DNA of 64,000 bases from an uncultured Caulobacterales bacterium. Lineage in GTDB: Bacteria > Pseudomonadota > Alphaproteobacteria > Caulobacterales > Maricaulaceae. Shown piece after piece: positions 1 to 18,195 of this stretch. Numbering within the stretch: position 1 is the stretch's first letter; each line of letters starts with the position of its first letter. The notes beneath the pieces are model-generated. The model was not told the origin of the DNA. It saw nothing but the letters and a program-made list of their open reading frames with translations, and did no database searches. The DNA lies in the NCBI GenBank assembly GCA_947503715.1, contig CANNER010000002.1, forward strand, positions 1 to 64,000, in the 5' to 3' direction. The translations under genes were made by a program, and so were the position numbers.

Positions 1-1527
1 TTCCGTCAGGACATTTATATCCTCAGAGGATTTCTCAGCCTGTTCTTTCAATTTCGCCGCAAGAGCATCACGATCCGCCGTTAATTTCTCAATCTTCTCA
101 TTGAAAATCTTGAGCGTCGCTTCCGCGTCAGACTTCAACTTCTCCCCTTGAGATTTTAGCTCAGCCCGCGCGGCGTCGCGATCTTTCAAAGCTGTCTCAG
201 CGGATAATTTATAGGTCGCAATTGCGTCATTGCGTTCACGTCTAATCTTTTCAATTTTTAGACTGGCGTCGGCCATATCCTTTTCGAGCTTTTTCGTGCG
301 GACTTTCAACTTCTCCGCCATCTCATCGCGACTGGCAAATGCGGCCCTCGCATCTGTTAAGGCTTTGGCAGCGGCAAGTTCGGCGACAGATCTGGCTTTA
401 CGGGCGAGGACTGCGTCATTGGCAGCGGCGACTGCACGTTCGCGAACCTGTTGAATTTGCGCGCCGCCAGGCAATTGGATGGATTCAATCAGATCCTGCG
501 TGAGGAAATCTGTTTCACCCAGGTCAGCAGCAACACCATGATTTTCCAGAACCTGTCCCAGGGCGCCCAACCGAAGCGTTTTGGCGAATGAGAATTCGGG
601 AATAGACGCAATCAAGTCCATATCTGCATCCCAACGGGAGAGATCAAAAACTTTTGAACCCGTTTCGAATGAAGGCTCCGTCATATCAGGGAACATAGTT
701 TTTAGTACGGCATTATAATCATCCAGACCCCGCAATTCTTGCGCGAGGCGGTCACTTACAAATATCTTTCCATTGAAAGTCGGGGCCAATCGCGCGGCAG
801 CCTCGAACGCGACATAGGGGATTAACATACTTTGCCCCATTAAATTCAGGAGCATTTTCAGGCCCAGAAGATTTCCTGAGAGGGAGGGGTTGGATTCGAT
901 GACGACATTTGTGTCCTCAACATCATCGAGACCAATAATGTCGAGAAAATCCTCCACGATGTCACGGTTTTTGAGTTTATCCCGCTCATAGAGACGGAAA
1001 ACCGAACGTTCCGAGAGTCGACTCCAATTTCTTATAAAGGCCGTAATTCTTATATTCTGACGCTCCATATACTGGCGGATATTGAATATCTCTCCGCTAA
1101 AATGGATGCGCTGCGCAAATCCGGACAGCCCATACCCTAAGCCCTCACGCATATAAGCAATGACGGTCAAGTCATAATCAGCAAAAAGAACGGCAAGACG
1201 CTTGAAATCTTTTTGATTTTGAAAATCCTCACTGCTGAGGAGAATGGTATCAAAACCCTCAGCCTCTTTCGCTAAATCTCGAAAAAGTGTCTCAACCTCC
1301 TCAGCGGGTTTATAATGTAGGGTATGACTGAATTCATGATGGGCTGTTGCCGCCGTGCCGTGCGGTGTTTTTCGACCGGTTTTAGGATATAAAATGCCCC
1401 GACTTGCCAAGAGGTCTGATTTCTGGGTGAAGAAATTCTGTAACGAAGATGTACCCGTTTTATGTCGCCCAATATGAAGATATAGCTTCTTTTTCGACGT
1501 GGTTTTTGCTGATTTTTGATCTGCCAT
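1..1527 (-). CDS. Sulfotransferase-like protein with C-terminal coiled coil (partial, runs off left edge)
   Basis: The minus frame is open from an ATG at 1527 to the window edge, giving 509 codons with no stop. Near residue 20 it has HIGRHKTGTSSLQ, which matches the PAPS 5'-phosphosulfate loop of the sulfotransferase fold. The first 300 or so residues look globular. From about residue 370 the sequence becomes Ala/Glu/Lys-rich with heptad-like spacing, typical of a long coiled coil, and it continues past the edge. The family moves sulfate from PAPS to glycans or other acceptors; the substrate here is unknown. A polysaccharide-processing role is inference. The C-terminus and true length cannot be seen. 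Confidence 0.7.
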   Translation of the reverse strand, partial: MADQKSAKTTSKKKLYLHIGRHKTGTSSLQNFFTQKSDLLASRGILYPKTGRKTPHGTAATAHHEFSHTLHYKPAEEVETLFRDLAKEAEGFDTILLSSEDFQNQKDFKRLAVLFADYDLTVIAYMREGLGYGLSGFAQRIHFSGEIFNIRQYMERQNIRITAFIRNWSRLSERSVFRLYERDKLKNRDIVEDFLDIIGLDDVEDTNVVIESNPSLSGNLLGLKMLLNLMGQSMLIPYVAFEAAARLAPTFNGKIFVSDRLAQELRGLDDYNAVLKTMFPDMTEPSFETGSKVFDLSRWDADMDLIASIPEFSFAKTLRLGALGQVLENHGVAADLGETDFLTQDLIESIQLPGGAQIQQVRERAVAAANDAVLARKARSVAELAAAKALTDARAAFASRDEMAEKLKVRTKKLEKDMADASLKIEKIRRERNDAIATYKLSAETALKDRDAARAELKSQGEKLKSDAEATLKIFNEKIEKLTADRDALAAKLKEQAEKSSEDINVLTE

Positions 1528-1612
1528 AATCAGAGCAATCCCTATTTAACGTCAGCCTTATAGACGGAAGCGGAATATGATGACCATGACCTATTTGCGC
1601 TATCTGGCACTC

Positions 1613-3013
1613 TTAAAAAGTGGCGGAAAAGCTGGTCCTTAAGCGGTTCCTTGCAGGAACGCCTTTTTGTAAATTATCTCCGTCCAATCCGTAGACCGCA
1701 ATCACGTCGAACCAATCAGCCTGAAGGCTTTGGTTCAAAAGGTCCTCAGCAGATAAGCTATAGCGGCCGGCCTGTCGACCGAGCTTAAAATCAATTTCGC
1801 CGACCCCATTATAGGTACGGTAAATGACTTCCGTACAAACGAGCCGATCGGCCGTGCTGAAATCGAAAATAAAGTCATATAATTTGCCCGTATGAGAGCG
1901 CGCCCGACTGAGAGCTGCTGAAATTTGCGCAGGTTTAAGCTTGGGTCGCAAGAGCACAAAAGCATCAACCTGCAAGGTCTCCTCAAGATTACGCAGTAGG
2001 ACCCCGTCTTTCTTCGCCTCCAGAATATCGGCATCCTCTGCCCCGAGCCAGAGTGCGGCATGGGGCCAGAATCCCGGAAGGAATAGGTTGCTCATCGCAT
2101 CGTCATGCCGGGTGACGAATACATCACCCGGCTGTAATATGCTCTTCAGTGTGTGGCGAAGTTCAGGCGTCACGCGCTTTTCTGCCTTTAAGGGCTTCAC
2201 GAGCGGGATCTTTAGGTCCGCAATATCAGATCCCATCATTTCAAAAACTGAAAAGAGAATATTTCGTAGCGCTGAGCCATGTCGGCGCTTGAGGGAGTGC
2301 CGTAAAAACCGACGGTAACGGCGAAGGTGGTTCCCGCGAGAGGCCGTTGGTAGGTTTAAGTCAATGAGAATGTCTATTACAGTTTCATATCCCGACAGTT
2401 TTAGGGCCTCGAAGACCTGTCCACGGTATTCATCAAAAAAATCACACGCCCGATAAAACCCATGCATGCGTATCGCGGAAGTGAGTTGTCGATAAAGGCG
2501 CGTGAAACTCTTTCTCGGGATGCCGTAGCGTTTTTCAGCTTCATCTAGCTTTTGCCATACAGCCTTACGTTGGCGCGCGAGATCTATTAGATATTCACCC
2601 GTCCTAACGATGATTTCAGCCGCGCAAAAGGCGAGGCCAAAATAACAAATGTCGCTCTGCGAAGCGCTATCAGGGTCAGACTGTACCCGTTTTGCGCCGG
2701 CCTCACATTCTTTTATAACCTCCCATAGAGACACTCGGATCGCGAGGTAGCGGGCATAGGTCACACGCAGCCGTTCATCTTCATCTGGATTATAATATCC
2801 GCGCGCCTCTGCAGCCTGTGCATCTTCGAGCAACATCTCTATATCGGAAGACTTTGGTAATGCCTTATAGGCCGCCGTTAAAATTCTGAGATGGAAAGAT
2901 CTTTCGGGGTTGTCTCTGCCAATTGTCGTCGAAAAGAGACTTTGGTCGAGATAAGGTGCTTTCTCACCATGATTGAACTGACGAGGATCTGCTTTATTGG
3001 AGGTTTGATCCAA
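1613..3013 (-). CDS. YiiX/YebB-type permuted papain-like hydrolase domain protein
   Basis: The C-terminal half matches the YiiX/YebB-like permuted NlpC/P60 fold (DUF830 type). LQPGDVFVTR opens the domain, WPHAALWLG carries the likely catalytic His, and LVCTEVIYR carries the likely Cys nucleophile. Members act as amidases or thioesterases; the substrate is unknown. The N-terminal 230 residues are helical and unrecognised. I place the start at the TTG at 3013 because AAGGA lies 8 nt upstream; a TTG at 3031 has only a poor site and follows an in-frame stop. The gene lies 85 nt upstream of the sulfotransferase-like gene on the same strand, so the two may be cotranscribed. Confidence 0.65.
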   Translation of the reverse strand: MDQTSNKADPRQFNHGEKAPYLDQSLFSTTIGRDNPERSFHLRILTAAYKALPKSSDIEMLLEDAQAAEARGYYNPDEDERLRVTYARYLAIRVSLWEVIKECEAGAKRVQSDPDSASQSDICYFGLAFCAAEIIVRTGEYLIDLARQRKAVWQKLDEAEKRYGIPRKSFTRLYRQLTSAIRMHGFYRACDFFDEYRGQVFEALKLSGYETVIDILIDLNLPTASRGNHLRRYRRFLRHSLKRRHGSALRNILFSVFEMMGSDIADLKIPLVKPLKAEKRVTPELRHTLKSILQPGDVFVTRHDDAMSNLFLPGFWPHAALWLGAEDADILEAKKDGVLLRNLEETLQVDAFVLLRPKLKPAQISAALSRARSHTGKLYDFIFDFSTADRLVCTEVIYRTYNGVGEIDFKLGRQAGRYSLSAEDLLNQSLQADWFDVIAVYGLDGDNLQKGVPARNRLRTSFSATF

Positions 3014-3096
3014 GATCGCGTTCCTTTTCAATCCAAATTAAATCCCGCCAAGCAATTTCTGGCTATCTTCAGACTATATATGTAAATCAAAAACGC

Positions 3097-3130
3097 AAAA
3101 AACCCCGCTGGCGTTAACCAAACGGGGCTC
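3097..3130 (-). terminator. rRNA operon terminator
   Basis: Read on the minus strand, a CCCCG/CGGGG stem (3123-3127 with 3103-3107) is followed by six T. It lies about 40 nt beyond the 5S gene and fits a Rho-independent terminator for the rRNA operon. Confidence 0.75.
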
Positions 3131-3171
3131 TTGTGTATAATATAAGGAGGAAAAACTATAGCTTGGATAAA

Positions 3172-3287
3172 CCGGGCGGCGACCTACTCTCCCGTGCCTT
3201 AAGACAAAGTACCATCGGCGCTGAGAGGCTTAACGACTGAGTTCGGGATGGGATCAGGTGGGGACCTCTCGCAATAACCACCCGGTC
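3172..3287 (-). rRNA. rrf: 5S ribosomal RNA
   Basis: The minus strand reads GACCGGGTGGTTATTGCGAG and later CCCATCCCGAACTC, the conserved 5S loop A-C sequence, and ends in a GCCCGGT strand complementary to the 5' end. The length of about 116 nt is normal. It is the last gene of the operon; no tRNA-fMet follows. Ends are accurate to a few bases. Confidence 0.93.
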
Positions 3288-3469
3288 AATGCAAGCTATG
3301 TTGTTTAAACGTCTCTCACGAGACGAATAAACGGATTAAATAGTAAAGATATCGTCTGAACAGCCCCAGCGTTTGGACATTTTAGTCCACGCGCATGGGC
3401 GCTAACGTTTCTTGTTTGATTAATCACTCCGAAGAGCAGTCAACCTTGGCCAAGAAACAATCTGAAATG

Positions 3470-6256
<2,787 letters not shown>

Positions 6257-6555
6257 CTTCAGATTCTTGAGATGGTCATGGTCCCGACCAGAAGAGTTAG
6301 GACCACAACCGTCAATGTTTGGCGCCCATGCGCGAGGAATAAAATGTCTATGTTTAGTGCATAAACAAACCTCACTGACATGAGCTGCCAGACGATATCT
6401 TTACTATTTAAAGCCCATCCTTGTCGATTAAAGTCCTTGCCTGATTAAATCAGCGCAAAGCCTCTGGGCGGATGAGCCCTCCTTATACGATGTCAAATAT
6501 CTGCCAACCTGTCTGAGCGAACTCATGTCGGTGACAAAACTTTGTGTGTTGAAAA
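6257..6555 (-). other. Internal spacer between tRNA-Ala and 23S
   Basis: About 300 nt of operon spacer with no tRNA or supported open frame. A stretch at 6400-6420 (GATATCTTTACTATTTAA) also occurs near 3337-3355 downstream of 23S, so the two flanks share sequence, as expected for RNase III processing regions. Confidence 0.6.
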
Positions 6556-6631
6556 TGGTGGAGCTTAGCGGATTCGAACCGCTGACCCTCTGCTTGCAAA
6601 GCAGATGCTCTACCAACTGAGCTAAAGCCCC
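6556..6631 (-). tRNA. tRNA-Ala (anticodon TGC)
   Basis: The minus strand folds as a 76-nt tRNA starting GGGGCTTTAGCTC, with TTTGCAA around the anticodon TGC, GGTTCGAATCC in the T arm and an encoded CCA end. It is the usual second tRNA of the 16S-23S spacer. Confidence 0.95.
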
Positions 6632-6780
6632 TCTAGCGATTTTGCGAAGCAAAAACGCGGAAAATGCGGCAGGCAATTGCGAAGCAAATGCCGAGAGCAT
6701 TCAAAGGTCAGGCCCGCACGCATTTGGCTACGCCAATTGCTTTCGCGGGGTCGTTGTTTTTCGCGAAGCGAAAAAGCAAC
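6632..6780. repeat. Spacer with three GCGAAGC-centred hairpins
   Basis: Between the two spacer tRNAs are three perfect or near-perfect palindromes, at 6640-6654, 6672-6692 and 6753-6780. All three have GCGAAGC at the centre, so each has the same GAA loop. The third has an 8-bp A/T-rich stem extended by GTTG/CAAC. They may be RNase III processing sites or copies of one small repeat. Confidence 0.6.
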
Positions 6781-6857
6781 TGGTAGGCCGAAGAAGACTT
6801 GAACTTCCGACCTCGCCCTTATCAGGGGCGCGCTCTAACCAGCTGAGCTACCGGCCT
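6781..6857 (-). tRNA. tRNA-Ile (anticodon GAT)
   Basis: A 77-nt cloverleaf on the minus strand. The acceptor AGGCCGG pairs with TCGGCCT, the anticodon loop reads CTGATAA with anticodon GAT, and CCA is encoded. It is the first tRNA of the 16S-23S spacer; 6858-7067 beyond it is spacer without a gene. Confidence 0.95.
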
Positions 6858-7062
6858 CCATATCAACACATTTACAACCTCATGCGACAAGTTGAATTCC
6901 GAAGAAATCAACAGCGCTACGGCTGCAAACGAATGGGAAGAAAAACGAAGACGGCGTTTAACCGCTATGTGATCCATATGGCGTGAGCCAATGGACCGTT
7001 ATATTTTCTAAAAAGATAAAAGCGTACGTCACTACCGAAATAGCGGAAGACACTCAAATCTT

Positions 7063-8545
<1,483 letters not shown>

Positions 8546-8917
8546 GAGAGTGAAACTGACCATGTCGTTGTTAATCGTTCGTGATCACCGAAGTAATCAA
8601 GAACCACTGACGTCTGAAATGCATAAATACATTTCAACGTTTTGCGTTCAAAGAAAATTACGAGTTCCTCAACCTATCGAAATAGGCCAAGCAATGTCAT
8701 AACTTTCGAAAAGAAACTTCAGACATAGTCGTTCAGTTAATGTGCAGTGTGTTACCACATCTGCTCACAGCCAAACGCCGCCTGCGTCTCTCTTCCCAAT
8801 ATTCACGATGTAAAACAGCTGGTTACGAATTTAATCCGCTTCCAAATTAAAAGCCCCGCTCGAGGAGAGGGGCTCCCGTTCCCGCCGGTTGACTGTGTGT
8901 CTCTCAGCGAGGAGCGC
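8546..8917 (-). other. rRNA operon leader
   Basis: About 370 nt between the predicted promoter and 16S, with no supported gene. It contains a C/G-rich hairpin at 8852-8873 (GCCCC/GGGGC) that on the minus strand is followed by TTTTAATTT and so looks like a terminator or attenuator. TTTTCTTTGAACG near 8640-8655 (minus) faintly resembles the boxA antitermination element. Confidence 0.5.
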
Positions 8918-8946
8918 TATATAGGGGGGTGATTTTTTTTCCGCAA
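8918..8946 (-). promoter_or_regulatory. Predicted rRNA promoter
   Basis: On the minus strand TTGCGG (8941-8946) and TATATA (8918-8923) are separated by exactly 17 bp. The -10 is followed by GCGCTCC, a G/C-rich discriminator typical of stringently controlled rRNA promoters. No better candidate was seen in the leader. Confidence 0.6.
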
Positions 8947-8991
8947 CACCTTTTTTCGCTAAAAGTGCAGAAAGATGCTTTTGCTTGCAGC

Positions 8992-9054
8992 TTATCCACC
9001 TTGTGCTACGGAAACCCCCATAAAACCGTGGTTTTGATAAACCACTTATCCACA
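8992..9054 (+). promoter_or_regulatory. Two DnaA-box-like sites and a hairpin
   Basis: TTATCCACA at 9046-9054 is a perfect DnaA box, and TTATCCACC at 8992-9000 differs at one base. Between them, 9028-9045 is a perfect palindrome GTGGTTT-TGAT-AAACCAC. They lie between the divergent rRNA promoter and the alkaline phosphatase gene and could bind DnaA. Two sites alone do not make an origin. Confidence 0.45.
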
Positions 9055-9066
9055 GGAACACCCAAA

Positions 9067-10518
9067 ATGGCCGCTAAACTCCAGCACCTGAAGCGTTTTT
9101 CCGCTTTTTTACTGATCTCAACAGCTCTTTTTCAGACAGCATGCATAGCAGAAAGCACTGAAAATAGCAATTCGGGCGAGTCGTCGACCCAAATCACCAT
9201 GAAAAAAAATACTGATTCAGGCGAAAAAAATTCAGTCGCGACTCAAAAAATGTCAGATTCGCCTCCGAAAAACATCATTGTCTTCATTGGGGACGGGATG
9301 GGCATCTCGACAATCACCGCCGGTCGAATCTTTGTCGGGCAGGAAATGGGCAAAAAAGGGGAGGAGCACGAGCTGTCTTGGGACACATTTGAGCAGCTCG
9401 CCCTCATCAAGACCTATAATACAAATGCACAGGTGCCGGATTCGGCCGGAACGGCAACGGCGATCCTGTCCGGATATAAGACAAATATCGGCGCAGTGAA
9501 TGTTCGGCCCGATGCGAATTTGGAAAATATGCTGGCCGAAGGCTGTGGCGGCGACACCTCCCCTACGCTGACCGACAAGGCGAAAGCCGATGGAAAGGCC
9601 GTTGGTGTCATTTCCACGGCCCGCCTGACCCACGCGACACCCGCCGTTATGTACTCACATTCCGCTAGTCGCGACATCGAAGCGGATAAAGACCTAGAAG
9701 GTCCCTTTGCCATGGAGGGCTGTAAAAGCATTTCGCAGCAATTGATTGAAAGCGAGGTTGATCTGGCGCTTGGAGGCGGGCGGAAAGAATTCACAGATGC
9801 GCAAGTCGCGGCTTGGCCGGGCGCTACCGCAAGCACAAAGGCCGATATGATGGCCGCAGATACGAGCCAACCCCTGCTCGGCCTGTTCAATGCGTCACAT
9901 ATGTCATTCGAAGCCGACCGTGCCGGGACGGAAGAGCCTTCCATTGCGGAGATGACAACATTCGCCATGGACCGCCTGGCCTCCAATGGCGACGGCTATG
10001 TCCTGATGGTCGAGGCGGGTCGTATCGATCACGCCCATCACGGCACGAACGCCTTTCGCGCATTGAAGGATTTGCAAGCGATGGATGCGGCCGTCTCAGC
10101 AGCCGTTGCAAAAGCGGATGATGACACACTCATCCTTGTGACTGCTGACCACAGCCATGTCTTCACAATGGCCGGCTATCCAGCCCGCGGGAATCCAATA
10201 CTCGGCCTTTCGCGCCCCGTCGATCCGGAGACCGGAATAGCCCATCTCGAATATGCGCTGGACGATGACGGCAAGACCTACACGACATTGGGCTATCAGA
10301 ACGGACCAAATGTGCGCGAAGCCGATTCAGAAACGCTGACCGACAACATGGTCCAAGCCCCCGATTACCGCCAGCAAACGGCCGTCCGCCTTCGGAGTGA
10401 AACCCATGCGGGAGAGGATGTCGCCCTCTTCGCGACGGGCCCCGGCGCAGAGCGCTTTAACGGCGTCATGGAACAGGACGAGATCGGACGCATTCTCGCC
10501 GACCTTCTGGCCGAATAA
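9067..10518 (+). CDS. Alkaline phosphatase (PhoA family)
   Basis: A metal-dependent phosphomonoesterase exported to the envelope. Family motifs appear in order: FIGDGMG near residue 74 (metal Asp), PDSAGTA near 124 with the nucleophile Ser126, then EAGRIDHAHHG and TADHSHV as zinc/magnesium ligands. The product of 483 residues has the usual family length. I chose ATG 9067 because it follows AGGAA and begins a signal peptide; the open frame extends 46 codons upstream into the rRNA promoter region. The signal ends in FQTAC, so it could be a lipoprotein with a poor lipobox or a normal secreted protein. The gene is divergent from the rRNA operon. No clear Pho box was found. Confidence 0.92.
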   Translation: MAAKLQHLKRFSAFLLISTALFQTACIAESTENSNSGESSTQITMKKNTDSGEKNSVATQKMSDSPPKNIIVFIGDGMGISTITAGRIFVGQEMGKKGEEHELSWDTFEQLALIKTYNTNAQVPDSAGTATAILSGYKTNIGAVNVRPDANLENMLAEGCGGDTSPTLTDKAKADGKAVGVISTARLTHATPAVMYSHSASRDIEADKDLEGPFAMEGCKSISQQLIESEVDLALGGGRKEFTDAQVAAWPGATASTKADMMAADTSQPLLGLFNASHMSFEADRAGTEEPSIAEMTTFAMDRLASNGDGYVLMVEAGRIDHAHHGTNAFRALKDLQAMDAAVSAAVAKADDDTLILVTADHSHVFTMAGYPARGNPILGLSRPVDPETGIAHLEYALDDDGKTYTTLGYQNGPNVREADSETLTDNMVQAPDYRQQTAVRLRSETHAGEDVALFATGPGAERFNGVMEQDEIGRILADLLAE

Positions 10519-11493: not shown

Positions 11494-12339
11494 TTGTCCA
11501 AATTTATGAAATCCACACTCGTCATGGGCGTCGCCGCACTTGGTCTCGCAGCCTGTGAAACCGACCCGATGGTCAAAGAGGCTGAAATGGCCAAAACAGA
11601 CGTGAAAATGGCGACAGCCGATGGCCCGCTCTGCACGACAATGGGCCCGCAAACACCGCGCGATATTTCCAGCAAAGTCGGTCTTAACCTGACAGACTTC
11701 ACAATGGCCCCGTCCAGCGGTCAGATGAATCTCTGCAATATTCACACCCACACAAATGCCGAACATAAAGGTCCGGGTTTTGAGATGTTTGTCGATGATA
11801 GCGATTACGGTGGATATGCCTGTAATGAAACGGCTGATCTGACGGCAGCAGAACTCGCGCCTTATGAAGGCAGCTACGGCAAAGTTAAATCCGGCGACAC
11901 GATCGAGGTCCACTGGGTCCACACATCCTGTGACGCAACACCGGGCGAAGGCCTTGGTGCCTGTGTGCCGGACACTTGTACGGATCCGGTTCTGCGCGTG
12001 GAGACGCAAGTCTTCCTCGTCGTCAATGACCGCAATGCGTCCGACTTCATGGACTATGCTTACCAAGGCAATCGTCTGAACTTTAAGTATCAGCCAAAAG
12101 CCCTCCCAACAGGAAACGGCACACCCGTCGTCTTCCGTGGCTCCACAACAGGGCCGAGCTATAATCAGTCCGTCTGCTCGCCAGCACAAGTCACATGGTC
12201 GGTCCGCCCACAATGTGAAAAGCTCGACATCGCGTCCCTCGACGCGTGGGCAAAGTCCGGTAACGTCTTTAACGAGACAGAAAGCCACGGCGTCCGCCAG
12301 CTCGTCACAGCACCAGAACTGCTGTCCCCGATTGAGTAG
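11494..12339 (+). CDS. Delta-class carbonic anhydrase, predicted lipoprotein
   Basis: The 281-residue product matches bacterial delta-class carbonic anhydrases (CA_like family), enzymes hydrating CO2 to bicarbonate. Diagnostic pieces are TTMGPQTPRDI, CNIHTHTNAEHKGPG with clustered His residues likely to hold the metal, HWVHTSCD, and near the end QVTWSVRPQC and HGVRQLVT. The N-terminus is a lipoprotein signal ending LAAC with Cys21, which places it on an envelope membrane. The start is TTG 11494, favoured over ATG 11506 because GGGAG sits 6 nt before it. A strong terminator follows. The product assignment is from memory of the family. Confidence 0.8.
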   Translation: MSKFMKSTLVMGVAALGLAACETDPMVKEAEMAKTDVKMATADGPLCTTMGPQTPRDISSKVGLNLTDFTMAPSSGQMNLCNIHTHTNAEHKGPGFEMFVDDSDYGGYACNETADLTAAELAPYEGSYGKVKSGDTIEVHWVHTSCDATPGEGLGACVPDTCTDPVLRVETQVFLVVNDRNASDFMDYAYQGNRLNFKYQPKALPTGNGTPVVFRGSTTGPSYNQSVCSPAQVTWSVRPQCEKLDIASLDAWAKSGNVFNETESHGVRQLVTAPELLSPIE

Positions 12340-12373: not shown

Positions 12374-12408
12374 CCCCCTTCGCCATATAAACCGAAGGGG
12401 GATTTTTT
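12374..12408 (+). terminator. Terminator of the carbonic anhydrase gene, abutting the next start codon
   Basis: CCCCCTTCG (12374-12382) pairs perfectly with CGAAGGGGG (12393-12401) across a 10-nt loop, followed by ATTTTTT. The T run ends directly at the ATG of the next gene (12409). The 3' arm AAGGGGG is also the only ribosome-site-like sequence for that gene, so the hairpin could hide it in read-through RNA. Confidence 0.85.
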
Positions 12409-14937
12409 ATGTTCTGGAAGCGCAAGAAAAAATCAACACCATCCGAATCTGAACAACGGCAAGCCGGACAAGAAAATCTAACACCGGCCCCTCCACTCAT
12501 GAAAAAATTCTTTGAGCTCTTTGTGAAAGACGGAGCTTATCACAGATACCAACCGTTTAAAGGCTCTCCCGCTGACATTGGGTATACCGAGCTGAGCCCG
12601 ACCGAACGCGCAGAGTTTCTCCTGTTCTTCGCAGAAAACCCGCCTTTTGCTCAGAAAGGGAACGAGACTTATGGGTATAATCTCCGCGAAACATATGGCC
12701 TTCTTCTCAGACGTAAGGCGGAGTTTACGCCGACTCAGGTTATTCATCTGCTGGCGATCTTAAAAGCTCGAAAATCGGGACGCTTCTATCAATGGCCCAT
12801 CGGACTTATCGTCTCTCAGCTTGAGAAGGCTGTTAAGCGAGAAGGTTTGACAGATTCAGAGCTCCTTAGCCTGAAAGACATGCTAACTTGGCCGGAATGG
12901 GCAACCCGCAGTTATGGTACCAACCTACAAAAAGCTCAGCTAAAACTTGCCGCAATCGTTGGAGAGGACGGGCCTACGCCCGTTTTTGAATTGGGAAATA
13001 CATATCTCGCTGAGCATATTCGGAATTGGACAAATGGCCTTTCGGAAAAACAATTAGAGAATTGGAACCGCCTCTTCAACTCAGCAGCATCTGCAAACGG
13101 ATCAAAGCCGACGAAGAAGCTTCAAACCGCTTTGACGACAGATATCGAACGTCTTGGTAAAGATGAATTTCGGACCGCTTTTCAGGATTGGGCGAGCTGG
13201 GCCGGCAAAACATCCAATGCCTTTCATTACCCAGAAGCAGAGGCGCGCCACTATTATAGTCGTGGTCAATTGCACGGCACGTTGCAAACCATGATAAAAG
13301 GCCTGGTTTGGGGTATGGCCAGATTTCATGATGAGAAGAGCCTTGCCTCAATCGCAGCGCTCGCAGAAAAATGTTTCGAACGCCTTCCCGGAATTGGCCC
13401 CGCCGCACCTGCGCTTGGCAATGCCTGTATTTACACACTGTCCACCTCAAAAGGCCTATCCGGCGTCGCGCATCTTTCACGCCTTAAGCTCCGCGTAAAG
13501 CAGAACAACACCCAAAAACTCATACAAAAGAAAATTGACGAAAACGCAAAACGCTTGGGTCTGAAATCAGCAGAAATCGAAGAAATGGCTGCGCCAGATT
13601 TTGGTTTGACCCAGGGCCTGCGTGATTATCCTTTTAAAGATTATACCTTGCGTCTGGATGCCCGACGCATTGGCGAGGCAAAACTGGCTTGGATTAAGCC
13701 TGACGGTTCAGCGCAAAAATCTGTGCCGAGCTTTATCAAGGAAAGTGAGACGCTGAAAAAACAACTCACCGCAATCCGTGCAACGGCCAAAAATATCAAG
13801 AAGGCGTCGACCGCCCAGCGTGACCGGATCGACCGTCTCTATACCGAGGATATGAGTTGGACCCCCGAAGCGCATCGCAAAGCCTACCTGAATCACGGTC
13901 TCGTCGGACCTTTGGCCCGAACCTTAATTTGGCAATTAGAGATCAACGGCGACGCGCTTCCAGCTCTTTTCAAAAATGAAAAATGGGAAGATGTCACGGG
14001 GAAAACCATTCATGCTGACATTACGTCTTTACGACTTTGGCACCCCGTCATGAGTGACATTGACACAATCATGGCTTGGCGAGACCGTTTTGAAATACTA
14101 CAAATTCAGCAACCGTTAAAGCAAGCCTATCGCGAAGTTTACATTCTCACCGATGCGGAAATTACTACACGTGTTTATTCAAATCGGATGGCGGCACATA
14201 TTCTTAAACAGCATCAGCTCAACGCATTGGCGGCCATACGCGGATGGTCTTATTCACTGATGGGGGCCTATGATGATGGGCGGGACAATGAAATTGCCCA
14301 AAAGCCTTTACCCGCCTATGATTTGACGGCGCAGTTCTGGATTGATGAAATATTAGACGAGGCGGATAGTTTCAACGATTCCGGTATTTGGGATTTTGTC
14401 GCGACGGATCAGGTGCGCTTCGTCAAGGCAGATGATACGCCCGTCGACCTTATAGATATTCCACCGATTATCCTCTCTGAAATTCTGCGGGATGCGGATC
14501 TCTTTGTGGGTGTAGCTAGCGTAGGGAATGATCCGACTTGGGCCGACCGAGGCGGAGCCCCGCGGACGCAACAATATTGGCAAAGCTTTGCTTTTGGCAA
14601 TCTCAATGAAACGGCCAAAACGCGCAAGGCCGTTCTGGAGAAACTATTACCCCGTTTAAAAATCAGAGATATTGCAAAAATCGAAGGTCGGTTCCTTCAA
14701 GTTCAGGGAAAGCGTCATCTCTACAACATCCATATCGGTAGCGGTAATATTCAAATTGCGAGTCGTGGTGATCGTTACCTTTGTATTGTTCCCGGGCGAG
14801 GTAAGAATAAGTCACTCGATAATCTCTACCTGCCCTTTGAAGGTGATCGGGGACTTTCCATTGTCCTTTCCAAGGCCTTCCTTTTGGCCGAAGATGATAA
14901 CATCACTGATACAACAATTCTCAGCCAGTTGAGATAG
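12409..14937 (+). CDS. DUF4132 domain protein (MolR/YehI-like)
   Basis: A large soluble protein of 842 residues, with no signal peptide or membrane segment. The central part shows the DUF4132 pattern: AWIKPDGS, then helical STAQRDRIDRL and HGLVGPLARTLIWQLE. The C-terminal end, KIEGRFLQV through HIGSGNI and YLCIVPG, matches the domain that usually closes these proteins. The N-terminal 400 residues are helical and poorly conserved; no WGR domain is visible. The biochemical function of the family is unknown. The stop codon region overlaps the ribosome site of the next gene, so the two are very likely translated together. The start codon sits directly behind a terminator hairpin. Confidence 0.8.
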   Translation: MFWKRKKKSTPSESEQRQAGQENLTPAPPLMKKFFELFVKDGAYHRYQPFKGSPADIGYTELSPTERAEFLLFFAENPPFAQKGNETYGYNLRETYGLLLRRKAEFTPTQVIHLLAILKARKSGRFYQWPIGLIVSQLEKAVKREGLTDSELLSLKDMLTWPEWATRSYGTNLQKAQLKLAAIVGEDGPTPVFELGNTYLAEHIRNWTNGLSEKQLENWNRLFNSAASANGSKPTKKLQTALTTDIERLGKDEFRTAFQDWASWAGKTSNAFHYPEAEARHYYSRGQLHGTLQTMIKGLVWGMARFHDEKSLASIAALAEKCFERLPGIGPAAPALGNACIYTLSTSKGLSGVAHLSRLKLRVKQNNTQKLIQKKIDENAKRLGLKSAEIEEMAAPDFGLTQGLRDYPFKDYTLRLDARRIGEAKLAWIKPDGSAQKSVPSFIKESETLKKQLTAIRATAKNIKKASTAQRDRIDRLYTEDMSWTPEAHRKAYLNHGLVGPLARTLIWQLEINGDALPALFKNEKWEDVTGKTIHADITSLRLWHPVMSDIDTIMAWRDRFEILQIQQPLKQAYREVYILTDAEITTRVYSNRMAAHILKQHQLNALAAIRGWSYSLMGAYDDGRDNEIAQKPLPAYDLTAQFWIDEILDEADSFNDSGIWDFVATDQVRFVKADDTPVDLIDIPPIILSEILRDADLFVGVASVGNDPTWADRGGAPRTQQYWQSFAFGNLNETAKTRKAVLEKLLPRLKIRDIAKIEGRFLQVQGKRHLYNIHIGSGNIQIASRGDRYLCIVPGRGKNKSLDNLYLPFEGDRGLSIVLSKAFLLAEDDNITDTTILSQLR

Positions 14938-14946
14938 GAGTCTAAG

Positions 14947-15345
14947 ATGGGTTTTCAAAACGTTATAATCCGAGATGAAACCATGGGCGGCGAAACCCTA
15001 AACCAATTTGCACTGGAGTTTTTAACGGCTGACGTCAGTGTTGCAGATATTATCCGCGAACGTGTCCGTTATGAAGTCGACGCTTATAACCGAAAAAAAC
15101 AGGACCGCTTTGCAGGTCTCATTCAACCCACTGGAACGGAAAAAGTTCTGAATAGTTATGCGATGAAGACACGCAGGAAAATTGATTCAGGCCAACAAAT
15201 TGAGACAGCCCTAAAAGCCTTTACTGCGAACGGTTACATTCTTCTTATCAATGATGTTCAAGCGGAAAGTTTGGAACAGAGAATTTCGCTTTTACCGGAT
15301 ATGAGCATTACGTTCTTAAAGCTCACGCCGCTTGTCGGAGGTTAA
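14947..15345 (+). CDS. Small protein with MoaD/ubiquitin-like C-terminus ending in Gly-Gly
   Basis: A 132-residue protein 9 nt after the DUF4132 gene, with AGGAG overlapping the end of that gene. I recall similar small proteins next to other DUF4132 genes, but no function is known to me. The N-terminus reads as a beta hairpin (VIIRDETMGGETLNQFALEF) followed by a helix. The last 36 residues (ILLINDVQAES, then ITFLKLTPLVGG) follow the end of beta-grasp sulfur carriers such as MoaD, whose final strand runs into a free Gly-Gly. The chain stops exactly at Gly-Gly. A conjugated or thiocarboxylated tail is inference; no E1-like gene is present in this window. Confidence 0.7.
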   Translation: MGFQNVIIRDETMGGETLNQFALEFLTADVSVADIIRERVRYEVDAYNRKKQDRFAGLIQPTGTEKVLNSYAMKTRRKIDSGQQIETALKAFTANGYILLINDVQAESLEQRISLLPDMSITFLKLTPLVGG

Positions 15346-15419: not shown

Positions 15420-16661
15420 CTATAGACCAACGACAAAGGAACAATTTGTCGTACCCGAGCCGCCGACATTAAAAGTCCCGACGGTCTTTGCGCCGTCGAC
15501 TTGATAGTCTCCGGCGCGGCCTGTTGCTTGCTTGGCAGCATCTAACAACATGCGCACACCTGTGGCGCCGACGGGGTGGCCCATACCGATCAATCCGCCA
15601 GATGGATTGACAGGCAGGTCGCCGTCAAAACCGATACGGCCCGTTTCAATGGCTTTCCACGCCTCACCCGGTGCCGTGAGGCCAAAATGTTCAATGGCCA
15701 TATATTCTGTGATGGAAAAACAATCATGCGTTTCGATCACGTCCAAATCATCCGGCCCGGAAATTCCCGCACGGCGATAAGCGTCCGTAATGGCTTTGCG
15801 CGTCCAAGGGAGCATGTAACCCTGCCCGTCTTCTCGCGCCGCGCTTTCCTGCAGCTTCGTCGTCATCAACATTGGCGCGGTCGTATGGCCCCAGCCGCGA
15901 ATACGCGGCAGTGTCTCAAGTGCGATACCGTGTGTATCCGCATAGGCTTGCGCGCGTGTTTCCGTCGCCAGAAAAACAACCGCCGCCCCGTCAGAAACTT
16001 GACCGCAATCCTGGCGACGCATCCAACCTTCGATGACGGGATTATACTCATCATTGGCCGTGAAACTCTCGGCTTCAAATGTCCATGTCCGTCCCTGCGC
16101 ATTGGGATTACGCCGCGCATTGGCAAAATTAATTTTCGAAATTTCGGCTAGATGATCATATTTCAAACCATAGCGTTGATCATACTCTTCCGCGAGATCG
16201 GAGAACATGGCCGGCCAGATATAGGACGCATCTTGCGCTTCTTCCCCGACCCAGATCGCCGCGCCTAAATTATTCGCCGCAATTTTTCCCGGCACATTGC
16301 GCATTAATTCTATACCCGCAACACAGGCCAAATCGTAACGCCCGCTTTCCAAATCCGTCATCGCGCCGAGGATAGCCAGCGAACCGGACGCGCAGGCCCC
16401 TTCGTGGCGGGAGGACGGCATGCCGGAAAAGTCCGGATGAACATGACCGAAAAACCCGCCCAGCATGCCTTGACCCGTGAAAAGCTCCGCCACAAAATTA
16501 CCGACATGGCCGACTTGGACATCTTTCGCGTCCAGTTTGCTTGTCTCCAACCCTTTCAAAACCGCCTCGGAAAACATGTCGAATAATGTCTTCTCCTGCC
16601 GCGCCCAATTGACCGAAAAATCAGTCTGATGGCCGCCGAGAATATAGATATCCCCTGCCAT
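15420..16661 (-). CDS. Thiolase / acetyl-CoA acetyltransferase family protein
   Basis: The 413-residue product is a SCP2/acetyl-CoA acetyltransferase-like thiolase. HEGACASGS near residue 86 carries the acyl-accepting Cys90; NPSGGLIGMGHPVGATG carries the conserved His; the C-terminal SGTTNCSF has the second Cys. It would make or cleave a 3-ketoacyl-CoA; this branch often acts on sterol or branched chains. Its ATG overlaps the stop of the upstream carotenoid oxygenase gene by one base (TAATG), so the two form one translationally coupled unit. Confidence 0.87.
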   Translation of the reverse strand: MAGDIYILGGHQTDFSVNWARQEKTLFDMFSEAVLKGLETSKLDAKDVQVGHVGNFVAELFTGQGMLGGFFGHVHPDFSGMPSSRHEGACASGSLAILGAMTDLESGRYDLACVAGIELMRNVPGKIAANNLGAAIWVGEEAQDASYIWPAMFSDLAEEYDQRYGLKYDHLAEISKINFANARRNPNAQGRTWTFEAESFTANDEYNPVIEGWMRRQDCGQVSDGAAVVFLATETRAQAYADTHGIALETLPRIRGWGHTTAPMLMTTKLQESAAREDGQGYMLPWTRKAITDAYRRAGISGPDDLDVIETHDCFSITEYMAIEHFGLTAPGEAWKAIETGRIGFDGDLPVNPSGGLIGMGHPVGATGVRMLLDAAKQATGRAGDYQVDGAKTVGTFNVGGSGTTNCSFVVGL

Positions 16662-18127
16662 TATGCGGTCGCCTTTAATTCACTCGCATCCGCCCAAACG
16701 GCATGTGTGCCGCTGCAAATGCGGTGTGGCAGAATGATCTGGCAAAGGGGTCCGGCCTCTAAATCCTTAGCGTCCAAAATCACGCATTCGGATCTATTTA
16801 AGGTCATGTCTGTGATGAAGCTGATGATATAACCATCATCCTCTGACGTGGCACCCTGACGCGGGATGAAGGGTGCTTCTGAGCCAAAGCGGTTGGGACC
16901 GAAATCATAGTGCTGTGTTTCACCGGTCTCCAAATCGTGTTTAAGCAATCCCGTAAAGAGGAACCAGCCATCCTCGCCCAGCACACTGTAAATATAGCGA
17001 TGTTTTTCACCGGCCACTTTTGGATTGATAGTTCCAAATTCAACGATCTCATCATCGAAGAGACGCTCTTCAATCGTCTCGCCCGTTTTCAGGTTGAAAC
17101 GCCAGCGGTGGAGGTGGGTTTGCAAGGAATGCAAATCGACATTCGAGCCCATAACCTTATATTTATCCGGCATATGTTCCAATGCATCGGGACGTGGGTT
17201 ATCTTGGAAATATCCGTCCATGATGACTTCGTCGCCCTCTTCATAGGCATTCATGAAATGTAGGACATAGGTTGAGTCTGCTTCGAACCACTGTACCTCT
17301 TCGGACGACCCGTAACGGGGCACTACGGCAAAGCGGGATTTCATTGTGCCGTCATAAACGGGGATGTAGAAATTCTGTTCGATCATGGCTTCCGGCCAGA
17401 ATTGCGGGAAGTCATTCAGGATCGAATAGTTTTTCGAAAACGCCATATCATGCGGCAGGCGCGGACCGGGTAGGTCCACGGGAATATAGTGTTTTAATTT
17501 ATTATCCGCCCCCACAACGCCGTAATGCATGAAGGGCGCATGGGTTGAATAATTAAAAAATAACAGCTCGCCCGTATGCGGGTCCAGCTTTGGATGGGCG
17601 GAAATCCCGTCAATCGGCGTCCAGCCTTCTATGCCCAAAGTTTCGAGCGTTTCAGGGTCCAAGCGATAGCCCTCGCCGCATTGCCAGAATGTCGAGAGAA
17701 TTTGACCGGCATGTACAATGACATCGGTCGACGAACTATCCTTGATATAGGGATGGGCACACCGACCGGGTCGCTCAGACTTATCCGGCCGGCCCATACA
17801 GCCAATCCAGAGAGATCGATTGGCTTCTTGTTCCGCTTCAAACCCGCGTGTCCGGATGAACCGGTTTTTATATTCAGCCTGACCATTGGACAGACGCATC
17901 ATGTGCAACATACCGTCGCCATCAAAGGGATGATATCGGCCAATCGCATCGTGAACCGGGTTTTCAGTATTCCGAATATAAATGCCGTCAATGTCGTCAG
18001 GAATCGTCCCGATGACTTCCATCGCATTATCATCATATTCCTCAAAATTCGGCGTCCACGCACCGTTTAGATAAGGATGGTCCGACGGAGAAAGCGTCGC
18101 CTTAACAGTGTTTACAAGCTTACCCAT
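16661..18127 (-). CDS. Carotenoid oxygenase family protein
   Basis: This family (RPE65/lignostilbene dioxygenase type) cleaves a C=C bond with non-haem iron held by four His. Candidates are visible in order: ISAHPKLD, LPHDMAFS, YVLHFMNA and CSGTHAVWA. The N-terminal LNGAWTPN...GIYIRN pattern is also typical. I place the start at ATG 18127; a TTG at 18139 would add four residues. The length of 488 residues is normal. It is coupled to the thiolase gene, which suggests that an apocarotenoid or stilbene-like product enters CoA metabolism; the true substrate cannot be told. Confidence 0.87.
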   Translation of the reverse strand: MGKLVNTVKATLSPSDHPYLNGAWTPNFEEYDDNAMEVIGTIPDDIDGIYIRNTENPVHDAIGRYHPFDGDGMLHMMRLSNGQAEYKNRFIRTRGFEAEQEANRSLWIGCMGRPDKSERPGRCAHPYIKDSSSTDVIVHAGQILSTFWQCGEGYRLDPETLETLGIEGWTPIDGISAHPKLDPHTGELLFFNYSTHAPFMHYGVVGADNKLKHYIPVDLPGPRLPHDMAFSKNYSILNDFPQFWPEAMIEQNFYIPVYDGTMKSRFAVVPRYGSSEEVQWFEADSTYVLHFMNAYEEGDEVIMDGYFQDNPRPDALEHMPDKYKVMGSNVDLHSLQTHLHRWRFNLKTGETIEERLFDDEIVEFGTINPKVAGEKHRYIYSVLGEDGWFLFTGLLKHDLETGETQHYDFGPNRFGSEAPFIPRQGATSEDDGYIISFITDMTLNRSECVILDAKDLEAGPLCQIILPHRICSGTHAVWADASELKATA

Positions 18128-18195
18128 TTGACGTTCCAATAGGTTGAGAAGTTTAATTATACAGGGTTTACAGTCGCATCATAGAAATGCAAAGC

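Follow-up and report, generated by a model that had tools for sequence, protein, structure and literature searches.

The window analysed here is a stretch of 64,000 nucleotides (nt) from an uncultured Caulobacterales bacterium (assembly GCA_947503715.1, contig CANNER010000002.1, positions 1 to 64,000 of the forward strand). It contains two adjacent genes on the + strand, one for a large protein of 842 amino acids (aa) with a DUF4132 and a DUF7737 domain (12409..14937) and one for a small protein of 132 aa with a predicted ubiquitin-like β-grasp fold (14947..15345), which ends in Gly-Gly. The pairing and the Gly-Gly end are conserved across genomes, and in some Bacteroidota a gene for a ThiF-type E1 enzyme directly follows the pair. 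We tentatively propose that the two genes form the core of a ubiquitin-like system that depends on an E1 and in which the DUF4132-DUF7737 protein would act as transferase or acceptor.

To our knowledge, only a few bacterial ubiquitin-like systems are known. Those that have been described carry E2 or JAB parts, as far as the accessible portions of two accounts go (PMC1779556, PMC11354881). The present pair appears to form a system for protein tagging or sulfur delivery that has not been described so far. It occurs in seven phyla by record title, its small protein lies outside every Pfam family, and it offers a concrete hypothesis for the role of DUF4132 and DUF7737. The three-gene operons of Bacteroidota contain the parts required for an in-vitro test. 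If the proposal is true, a minimal E1 and one large partner would suffice for ubiquitin-like transfer.

Conservation of the pair and its Gly-Gly end

In the window, both open reading frames are present as the original prediction described them, separated by 9 nt and tightly coupled, with the AGGAG ribosome-binding site of the small gene (14936..14940), read from the sequence, overlapping the TAG stop of the upstream gene. The DUF4132 domain of the large protein (residues 433-613, 13705..14247, +; Pfam PF13569, E 3.5e-37) is followed at the C-terminus by a DUF7737 domain (residues 736-841, 14614..14931, +; Pfam PF24879, E 6.8e-34). The latter was absent from the earlier naming of the protein and marks the subfamily with the ubiquitin-like partner. 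The small protein terminates in ...LKLTPLVGG, and its two C-terminal glycine codons (15337..15342, +) lie directly 5' of the stop.

Relatives of the small protein were first found in plasmid-collection records of Nonomuraea gerenzanensis and Novosphingobium humi, and they occur in 3 of 385 genomes of the window's class, the window's own genome included. One further candidate among the class genomes, G188, was rejected as a false match, being partial, interrupted by a stop and placed inside an unrelated gene. Each of the four relatives from outside the window adjoins a large gene that matches DUF7737. An alignment of the five large proteins served as query for a scan of a genome collection, from which the best 80 of at least 504 relatives were kept; together with the five starting loci, they give the 85 loci considered below. 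Since the query proteins came from loci found via the small protein, the scan favours the DUF4132+DUF7737 subfamily, and its pairing figures cover the best-scoring relatives only.

A profile of the small protein matches 73 of the 85 loci. Five of the scan loci (L011, L020, L027, L073 and L078) have less than 80 nt upstream of DUF4132 and were excluded. Among the 75 scan loci that are not cut by a contig end just upstream of DUF4132, 68 have a small gene nearby on the same strand, the frames either overlapping or lying at most 188 nt apart, except for L081, which has a short DUF4132 frame and a spacing of 1,211 nt. The conserved pairing on which the original prediction depended is thus found in other genomes, together with the Gly-Gly end, which is exact in 70 of the 73 small proteins and reads LTPLVGG in 50 of these. 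Because both features recur across genomes, they are not the product of chance. As to the three exceptions, the small genes of L014 and L059 (genome copies L093 and L096) have an in-frame stop beside an open DUF4132 frame, while the protein of L065 ends in VGV and the same genome also carries a normal copy, L069.

The seven scan loci without a nearby small gene (L018, L024, L031, L034, L041, L074 and L084), the five cut loci and the odd loci L014, L059 and L065 were followed up by a whole-genome search for the small gene. It was found in 11 of these 15 genomes, and the four without it are all metagenome-assembled genomes (MAGs; L018, L034, L020 and L078). Five of the seven unpaired genomes carry the small gene on another contig, and two, the MAGs of L018 and L034, do not. 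The small gene stands upstream of DUF4132 in 69 of 73 loci and downstream in the window, in L019 (a MAG of Hellea sp.), in L075 and in L089. By record title, the seven phyla are Bacteroidota, Pseudomonadota, Planctomycetota, Verrucomicrobiota, Acidobacteriota, Armatimonadota and Actinomycetota; many of the records are MAGs, and one further MAG is labelled as a cyanobacterium. The pairwise identities of the small and the large proteins covary (r 0.81 for 57 pairs; the maximum of 1000 permutations is 0.32), a parallel divergence that co-inheritance alone would also explain. Tandem DUF4132 genes are seen in a few places: Hymenobacter sp. H14-R3 has three of them beside a single small gene (L069, 2351-10313), L087 has two (5496-10307), and L034 has a partial and a full copy (625-4240). 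Viral contigs, searched with few query patterns, gave no relative of either the small or the large protein, and phage carriage was rejected.

The partner goes with the DUF4132+DUF7737 subfamily, not with DUF4132 at large, as the following occurrences indicate. Three of 398 genomes of the window's phylum have the small protein, and the same three have DUF7737, which is otherwise seen only as a 32-residue fragment in G444; the two counts are judged to come from one and the same sample. A search of 299 genomes of the phylum found DUF4132 itself in 10, namely the three with the pair, six others of the 398, and G325. None of the six sampled genomes, which lack DUF7737, has the small protein, and G325 has no match to that of the window. 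YehI carries a DUF4132 domain (residues 954-1138) without DUF7737. The earlier suggestion that the large protein has a dedicated ubiquitin-like partner is well supported, but its attribution to DUF4132 was too broad and holds for the subfamily with both domains. The fragment in G444 (L109, 1501-1596) is a lone C-terminal piece of DUF7737 in an 85-aa frame, and this genome also has a Prok-E2_B match.

Predicted folds and the neighbouring E1

Searches with the small protein gave nothing in Pfam at E up to 1, no sequence match in the PDB at E up to 10, and a single NCBIfam match at E 0.056, far below the cut-off of that model. An AlphaFold model built from 69 sequences, with a predicted local distance difference test score (pLDDT) of 80, places strands at residues 4-11 and 17-25, a helix at 32-49, a loose insert, a second helix at 81-93 and strands at 98-101, 112-114 and 120-124. 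The order is thus β-β-α-[insert]-α-β-β-β, and the C-terminal tail is unstructured in the model. The best 50 of 458 Foldseek matches (E up to 10) are topped by ubiquitin bound to Uba1 and also hold MoaD (template modelling score by target 0.58-0.63), SUMO and NEDD8 as well as the Ras-binding domains of p110; most of the matched folds are classed as β-grasp. The model suggests that the small protein probably has a ubiquitin/MoaD-like β-grasp fold. Profile matches to Urm1, seen in 2 of 71 members with a best E of 0.063, are at chance level. PF02597, the ThiS/MoaD family, is neither among the 25 listed of the 44 families matched by the 71 members at E up to 10 nor in the Pfam scan of the window, and membership of ThiS/MoaD by profile is unsupported, the score being at the level of shuffled sequences.

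The large protein of the window has three cysteines in all. One of them, Cys792 (codon 14782..14784, +), lies in a YLCIVP motif within DUF7737, is identical in 63 of 63 aligned proteins and is a candidate acceptor cysteine. The invariant residues also include His775, Ser778, Asp813, Lys822, Asp834 and Gln840, and Lys571 is conserved in 98% of the aligned proteins. The two proteins were co-folded from an alignment of 11 loci in which the small gene lies upstream in frame, the model being a read-through of both genes of L017 (pLDDT 88, predicted template modelling score 0.73). Its parts are each confident, but the model is uninformative on contact between the two proteins; the partner is predicted to be mainly helical in its N-terminal half and mixed in the second. 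Foldseek gives weak matches of this model to armadillo/HEAT proteins (best E 0.016). A profile search of DUF7737 against the PDB gave no convincing relative, with a best E of 0.78. The helix-strands-Cys-helix order of the DUF7737 model resembles that of E2 enzymes, but an E2 origin finds no support in Pfam matches of the 63 members, in the PDB profile search or in an hhalign comparison with Prok-E2_B.

Once antisense shadow frames and gene order shared within Hymenobacter are set aside, clustering of 1018 genes from the 85 loci identifies a ThiF-type E1 as the only recurrent family that adjoins the pair. Four loci (L033, L035, L060 and L077) end too early for the E1 to be judged. In 12 of the remaining 81 the E1 gene lies directly downstream of DUF4132 on the same strand, at a spacing of -3 to +4 nt and with the small gene upstream, so that the order is Ubl-DUF4132-E1. 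All 12 are Bacteroidota (L015, L025, L029, L036, L037, L040, L042, L043, L044, L047, L048 and L049). The immediate neighbours comprise 136 selected proteins, of which 25 were omitted by hand and 111 scanned; ThiF is their commonest family with 12 matches, the next having 4. PADLOC models of E1-E2 proteins match an equal number, 12 of 111, which is what homology to E1 would produce. In 2 of the 111 cases the neighbour is a ClpS adaptor gene, probably by chance.

Four of these E1s were compared with Pfam and match ThiF at E 5e-59 to 4e-72, and the same four score under the cut-offs that NCBIfam sets for the MoeB and ThiF models listed. The GxGGLG and NLxRQ motifs and the cysteine are kept in 12 of 12, and the cysteine (C180, in all 13 rows) aligns with that of a MoeB-like protein from the window's genome. 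A CxxC motif is present in 0 of 12, and the lengths are 194-248 aa, the frame of L048 being short at 194 aa. L037 has a second, partial E1 copy (8864-9253, +) about 4.5 kb from the first. On a quick DUF4132 tree with 11 of the 12 E1 loci and 49 loci without E1, which has two long branches, the E1 label requires 7 changes, at least 5 of them by well-supported branches, and is clustered (1 of 500 shuffles is as low). The E1 has therefore been gained or lost several times.

A search of 38 genomes with an E1 profile gave scores of 359-366 bits in the four genomes with an adjacent E1. The same four hold further ThiF-type matches, and the adjacent E1 is therefore an extra paralogue. In the other 34 genomes, where no E1 is adjacent, ThiF proteins score 190-277 bits in 33, and a single MAG lacks any at E 1e-20. 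The window's genome has a single ThiF match, one ThiS-family match and one MoaE, and any E1 that serves the pair there would therefore be shared.

Possible mechanism and its alternatives

A conserved free Gly-Gly end and a β-grasp fold together with an adjacent ThiF-type E1 are the mark of E1-activated ubiquitin-like proteins, as in MoaD/MoeB, ThiS/ThiF and ubiquitin/E1. Activation leads either to a thioester, which serves conjugation, or to a thiocarboxylate, from which sulfur is delivered. In the proposed mechanism, the small β-grasp protein would carry a ready-made C-terminal Gly-Gly and therefore need no trimming. A ThiF/MoeB-type E1 would adenylate the terminal glycine and then bind the small protein on the conserved E1 cysteine. 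This enzyme would be dedicated and next door in some Bacteroidota, and a housekeeping MoeB-like E1 elsewhere, as in the window's genome. The charged small protein would be passed to the DUF4132-DUF7737 partner, whose helical body may hold substrates or the partner itself, and the modifier would be accepted or transferred at the C-terminal DUF7737, most likely via Cys792, whose invariance would make it the natural acceptor. We lean towards transfer of the small protein itself because the dedicated E1s leave no room for a rhodanese domain and no sulfur family recurs among the neighbour families listed. It is conceivable, though unlikely, that DUF7737 with Cys792 is a ubiquitin-like transferase of a new class, the helical-repeat protein moving the modifier directly from a MoeB-type E1 to its cargo in a conjugation system that has neither E2 nor JAB.

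The proposed system resembles ThiS/MoaD with ThiF/MoeB in the predicted β-grasp fold, in the free C-terminal Gly-Gly (present in 30 of 30 fetched ThiS/MoaD sequences) and in a MoeB/ThiF-type E1 with a conserved cysteine. It differs in that the small proteins have about 130 aa with an insert of about 30 residues and no sequence match to ThiS/MoaD was found, and in that the partner is a DUF4132-DUF7737 protein rather than MoaE or ThiG, with no sulfur family recurring nearby. Urm1 and SAMP are MoaD-like modifiers served by MoeB-like E1s, but the Urm1 match of the small family, as described above, does not rise above chance. With YehI/MolR-type proteins, represented by E. coli yehI, the DUF4132 domain is held in common, whereas YehI is without DUF7737 and yehI adjoins WGR-family YehF, MoxR, VWA and SWIM genes; no MoxR, VWA, SWIM or WGR family is recurrent beside the pair. 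The Bil operons and clusters 6a-6e of Iyer et al. 2006 likewise place a bacterial ubiquitin-like protein and an E1-like enzyme in one operon, and cluster 6d has a small standalone β-grasp protein with a conserved C-terminal glycine, according to the portions available (PMC1779556, PMC11354881; cluster 6d in PMC1779556). Unlike them, the present loci show no E2 and no recurrent JAB, and their E1 is too short to include a fused domain; a DUF4132-type partner is not named in the available portions of either source. Elsewhere, the accessible text of PMC8533742 states that a Deinococcus DUF4132 member may take part in molybdopterin biosynthesis and mentions MolR, and that of PMC7824862 names MolR-like WGR factors. 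The literature search, which covered a minority of subscription papers and no bioRxiv preprints, found neither a title on the pair nor the name DUF7737.

Several observations weigh against the proposal. The E1 is not directly downstream in 69 of the 81 judged loci, the window among them, and the sole ThiF match of the window's genome is a MoeB-like protein with CxxC encoded on another contig. No E2 is among the recurrent neighbours in the 85-locus clustering or the 111 scanned proteins. No recurrent deconjugase was seen, and no JAB family matches at least two of the 111 neighbours among the 25 of 109 families listed; of the genes envisaged by the original prediction, an E1-like one is borne out. 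Structural support is limited as well: the Foldseek scores of the small protein are weak (best E 0.02, none at or below 0.001) and its matches also include staphylococcal superantigen-like proteins, an hhalign comparison with ThiS/MoaD gave 1.1% where shuffles reached 1.5% (n=20; without a positive control), and the co-fold left the Gly-Gly tail unplaced (pLDDT <50). Pfam identifies an E2 in 0 of 63 DUF7737 members, and hhalign of DUF7737 against nine Prok-E2_B sequences gave 0.6%, likewise without a positive control. The scan is biased, and its pairing rate does not extend to the weaker DUF4132 relatives that were not kept. In the literature within the reach of the search, no biochemical work on the pair was found.

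The foremost alternative is a sulfur carrier, in which the E1 would make a C-terminal thiocarboxylate, as on MoaD and ThiS, and the partner would take the sulfur as MoaE does from MoaD, the product being an unknown sulfur cofactor or modified RNA. MoeB/ThiF-type E1s are established to serve sulfur carriers, the MoaD structures 6jc0_A, 6jbz_B and 5mpo_A are among the listed Foldseek matches, and, where no E1 is adjacent, 30 of the 33 best ThiF matches lie in frames of 351-448 aa, the size of an E1-rhodanese fusion judged by length alone. We nevertheless consider this reading unlikely: the dedicated E1s lack CxxC and are not long enough to include a rhodanese, the small family has no ThiS/MoaD match by sequence, and no sulfurtransferase, cysteine desulfurase, cofactor or other sulfur donor or acceptor family matches at least two of the 111 scanned neighbours among the families listed.

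The pair might instead have a single target: the small protein would be a subunit dedicated to the DUF4132 protein, or a covalent tag on it, and its Gly-Gly would dock on, or bond to, a lysine of the partner as an on/off switch. Lys822, which is invariant, and Lys571 would suit this role, and the regularity of the pairing, the tight coupling of the genes and their parallel divergence (which co-inheritance would also give) would be in keeping with such a switch. The three DUF4132 genes beside one small gene in Hymenobacter, the unplaced tail in the co-fold and the adjacent E1 of 12 loci, which points to activation chemistry, make it improbable. That the small protein is not ubiquitin-like at all but an accessory subunit with a structural Gly-Gly, the Bacteroidota E1 being a secondary association, would accord with the weak fold scores and with the many loci that have no E1 directly downstream. 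It is hard to reconcile with the exact Gly-Gly end of 70 of the 73 small proteins, which come from seven phyla according to record titles, with the β-grasp prediction and with an E1 neighbour gained or lost at least five times on the tree, and we regard it as very improbable. A known defence system was also considered and rejected, since neither protein of the pair matches PADLOC at E up to 1.

Other features of the window

Immediately before the pair, a hairpin of 8 pairs (CCCCTTCG...CGAAGGGG) with a T run (12375-12408, +) reaches right up to the start codon (ATG) of DUF4132, and its 3' arm includes AGGGGG, which resembles a ribosome site. The hairpin may act as a terminator for the upstream gene or may mask the DUF4132 start. 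It is not unusual in comparison with shuffled sequences (z -0.88), and its loop exceeds the loop limit of the hairpin scan, so that it is unlisted there. The flanking genes, given as carbonic anhydrase and thiolase in the original prediction, agree with the family matches, which specify the carbonic anhydrase directly upstream of the pair (11494-12339, +; PF10563, E 1.6e-62) as one of the delta class. Carbonic anhydrases of this class are best known from diatoms and other algae. The thiolase gene adjoins a gene for an RPE65-type carotenoid oxygenase (16661-18139, -; PF03055, E 1.9e-123).

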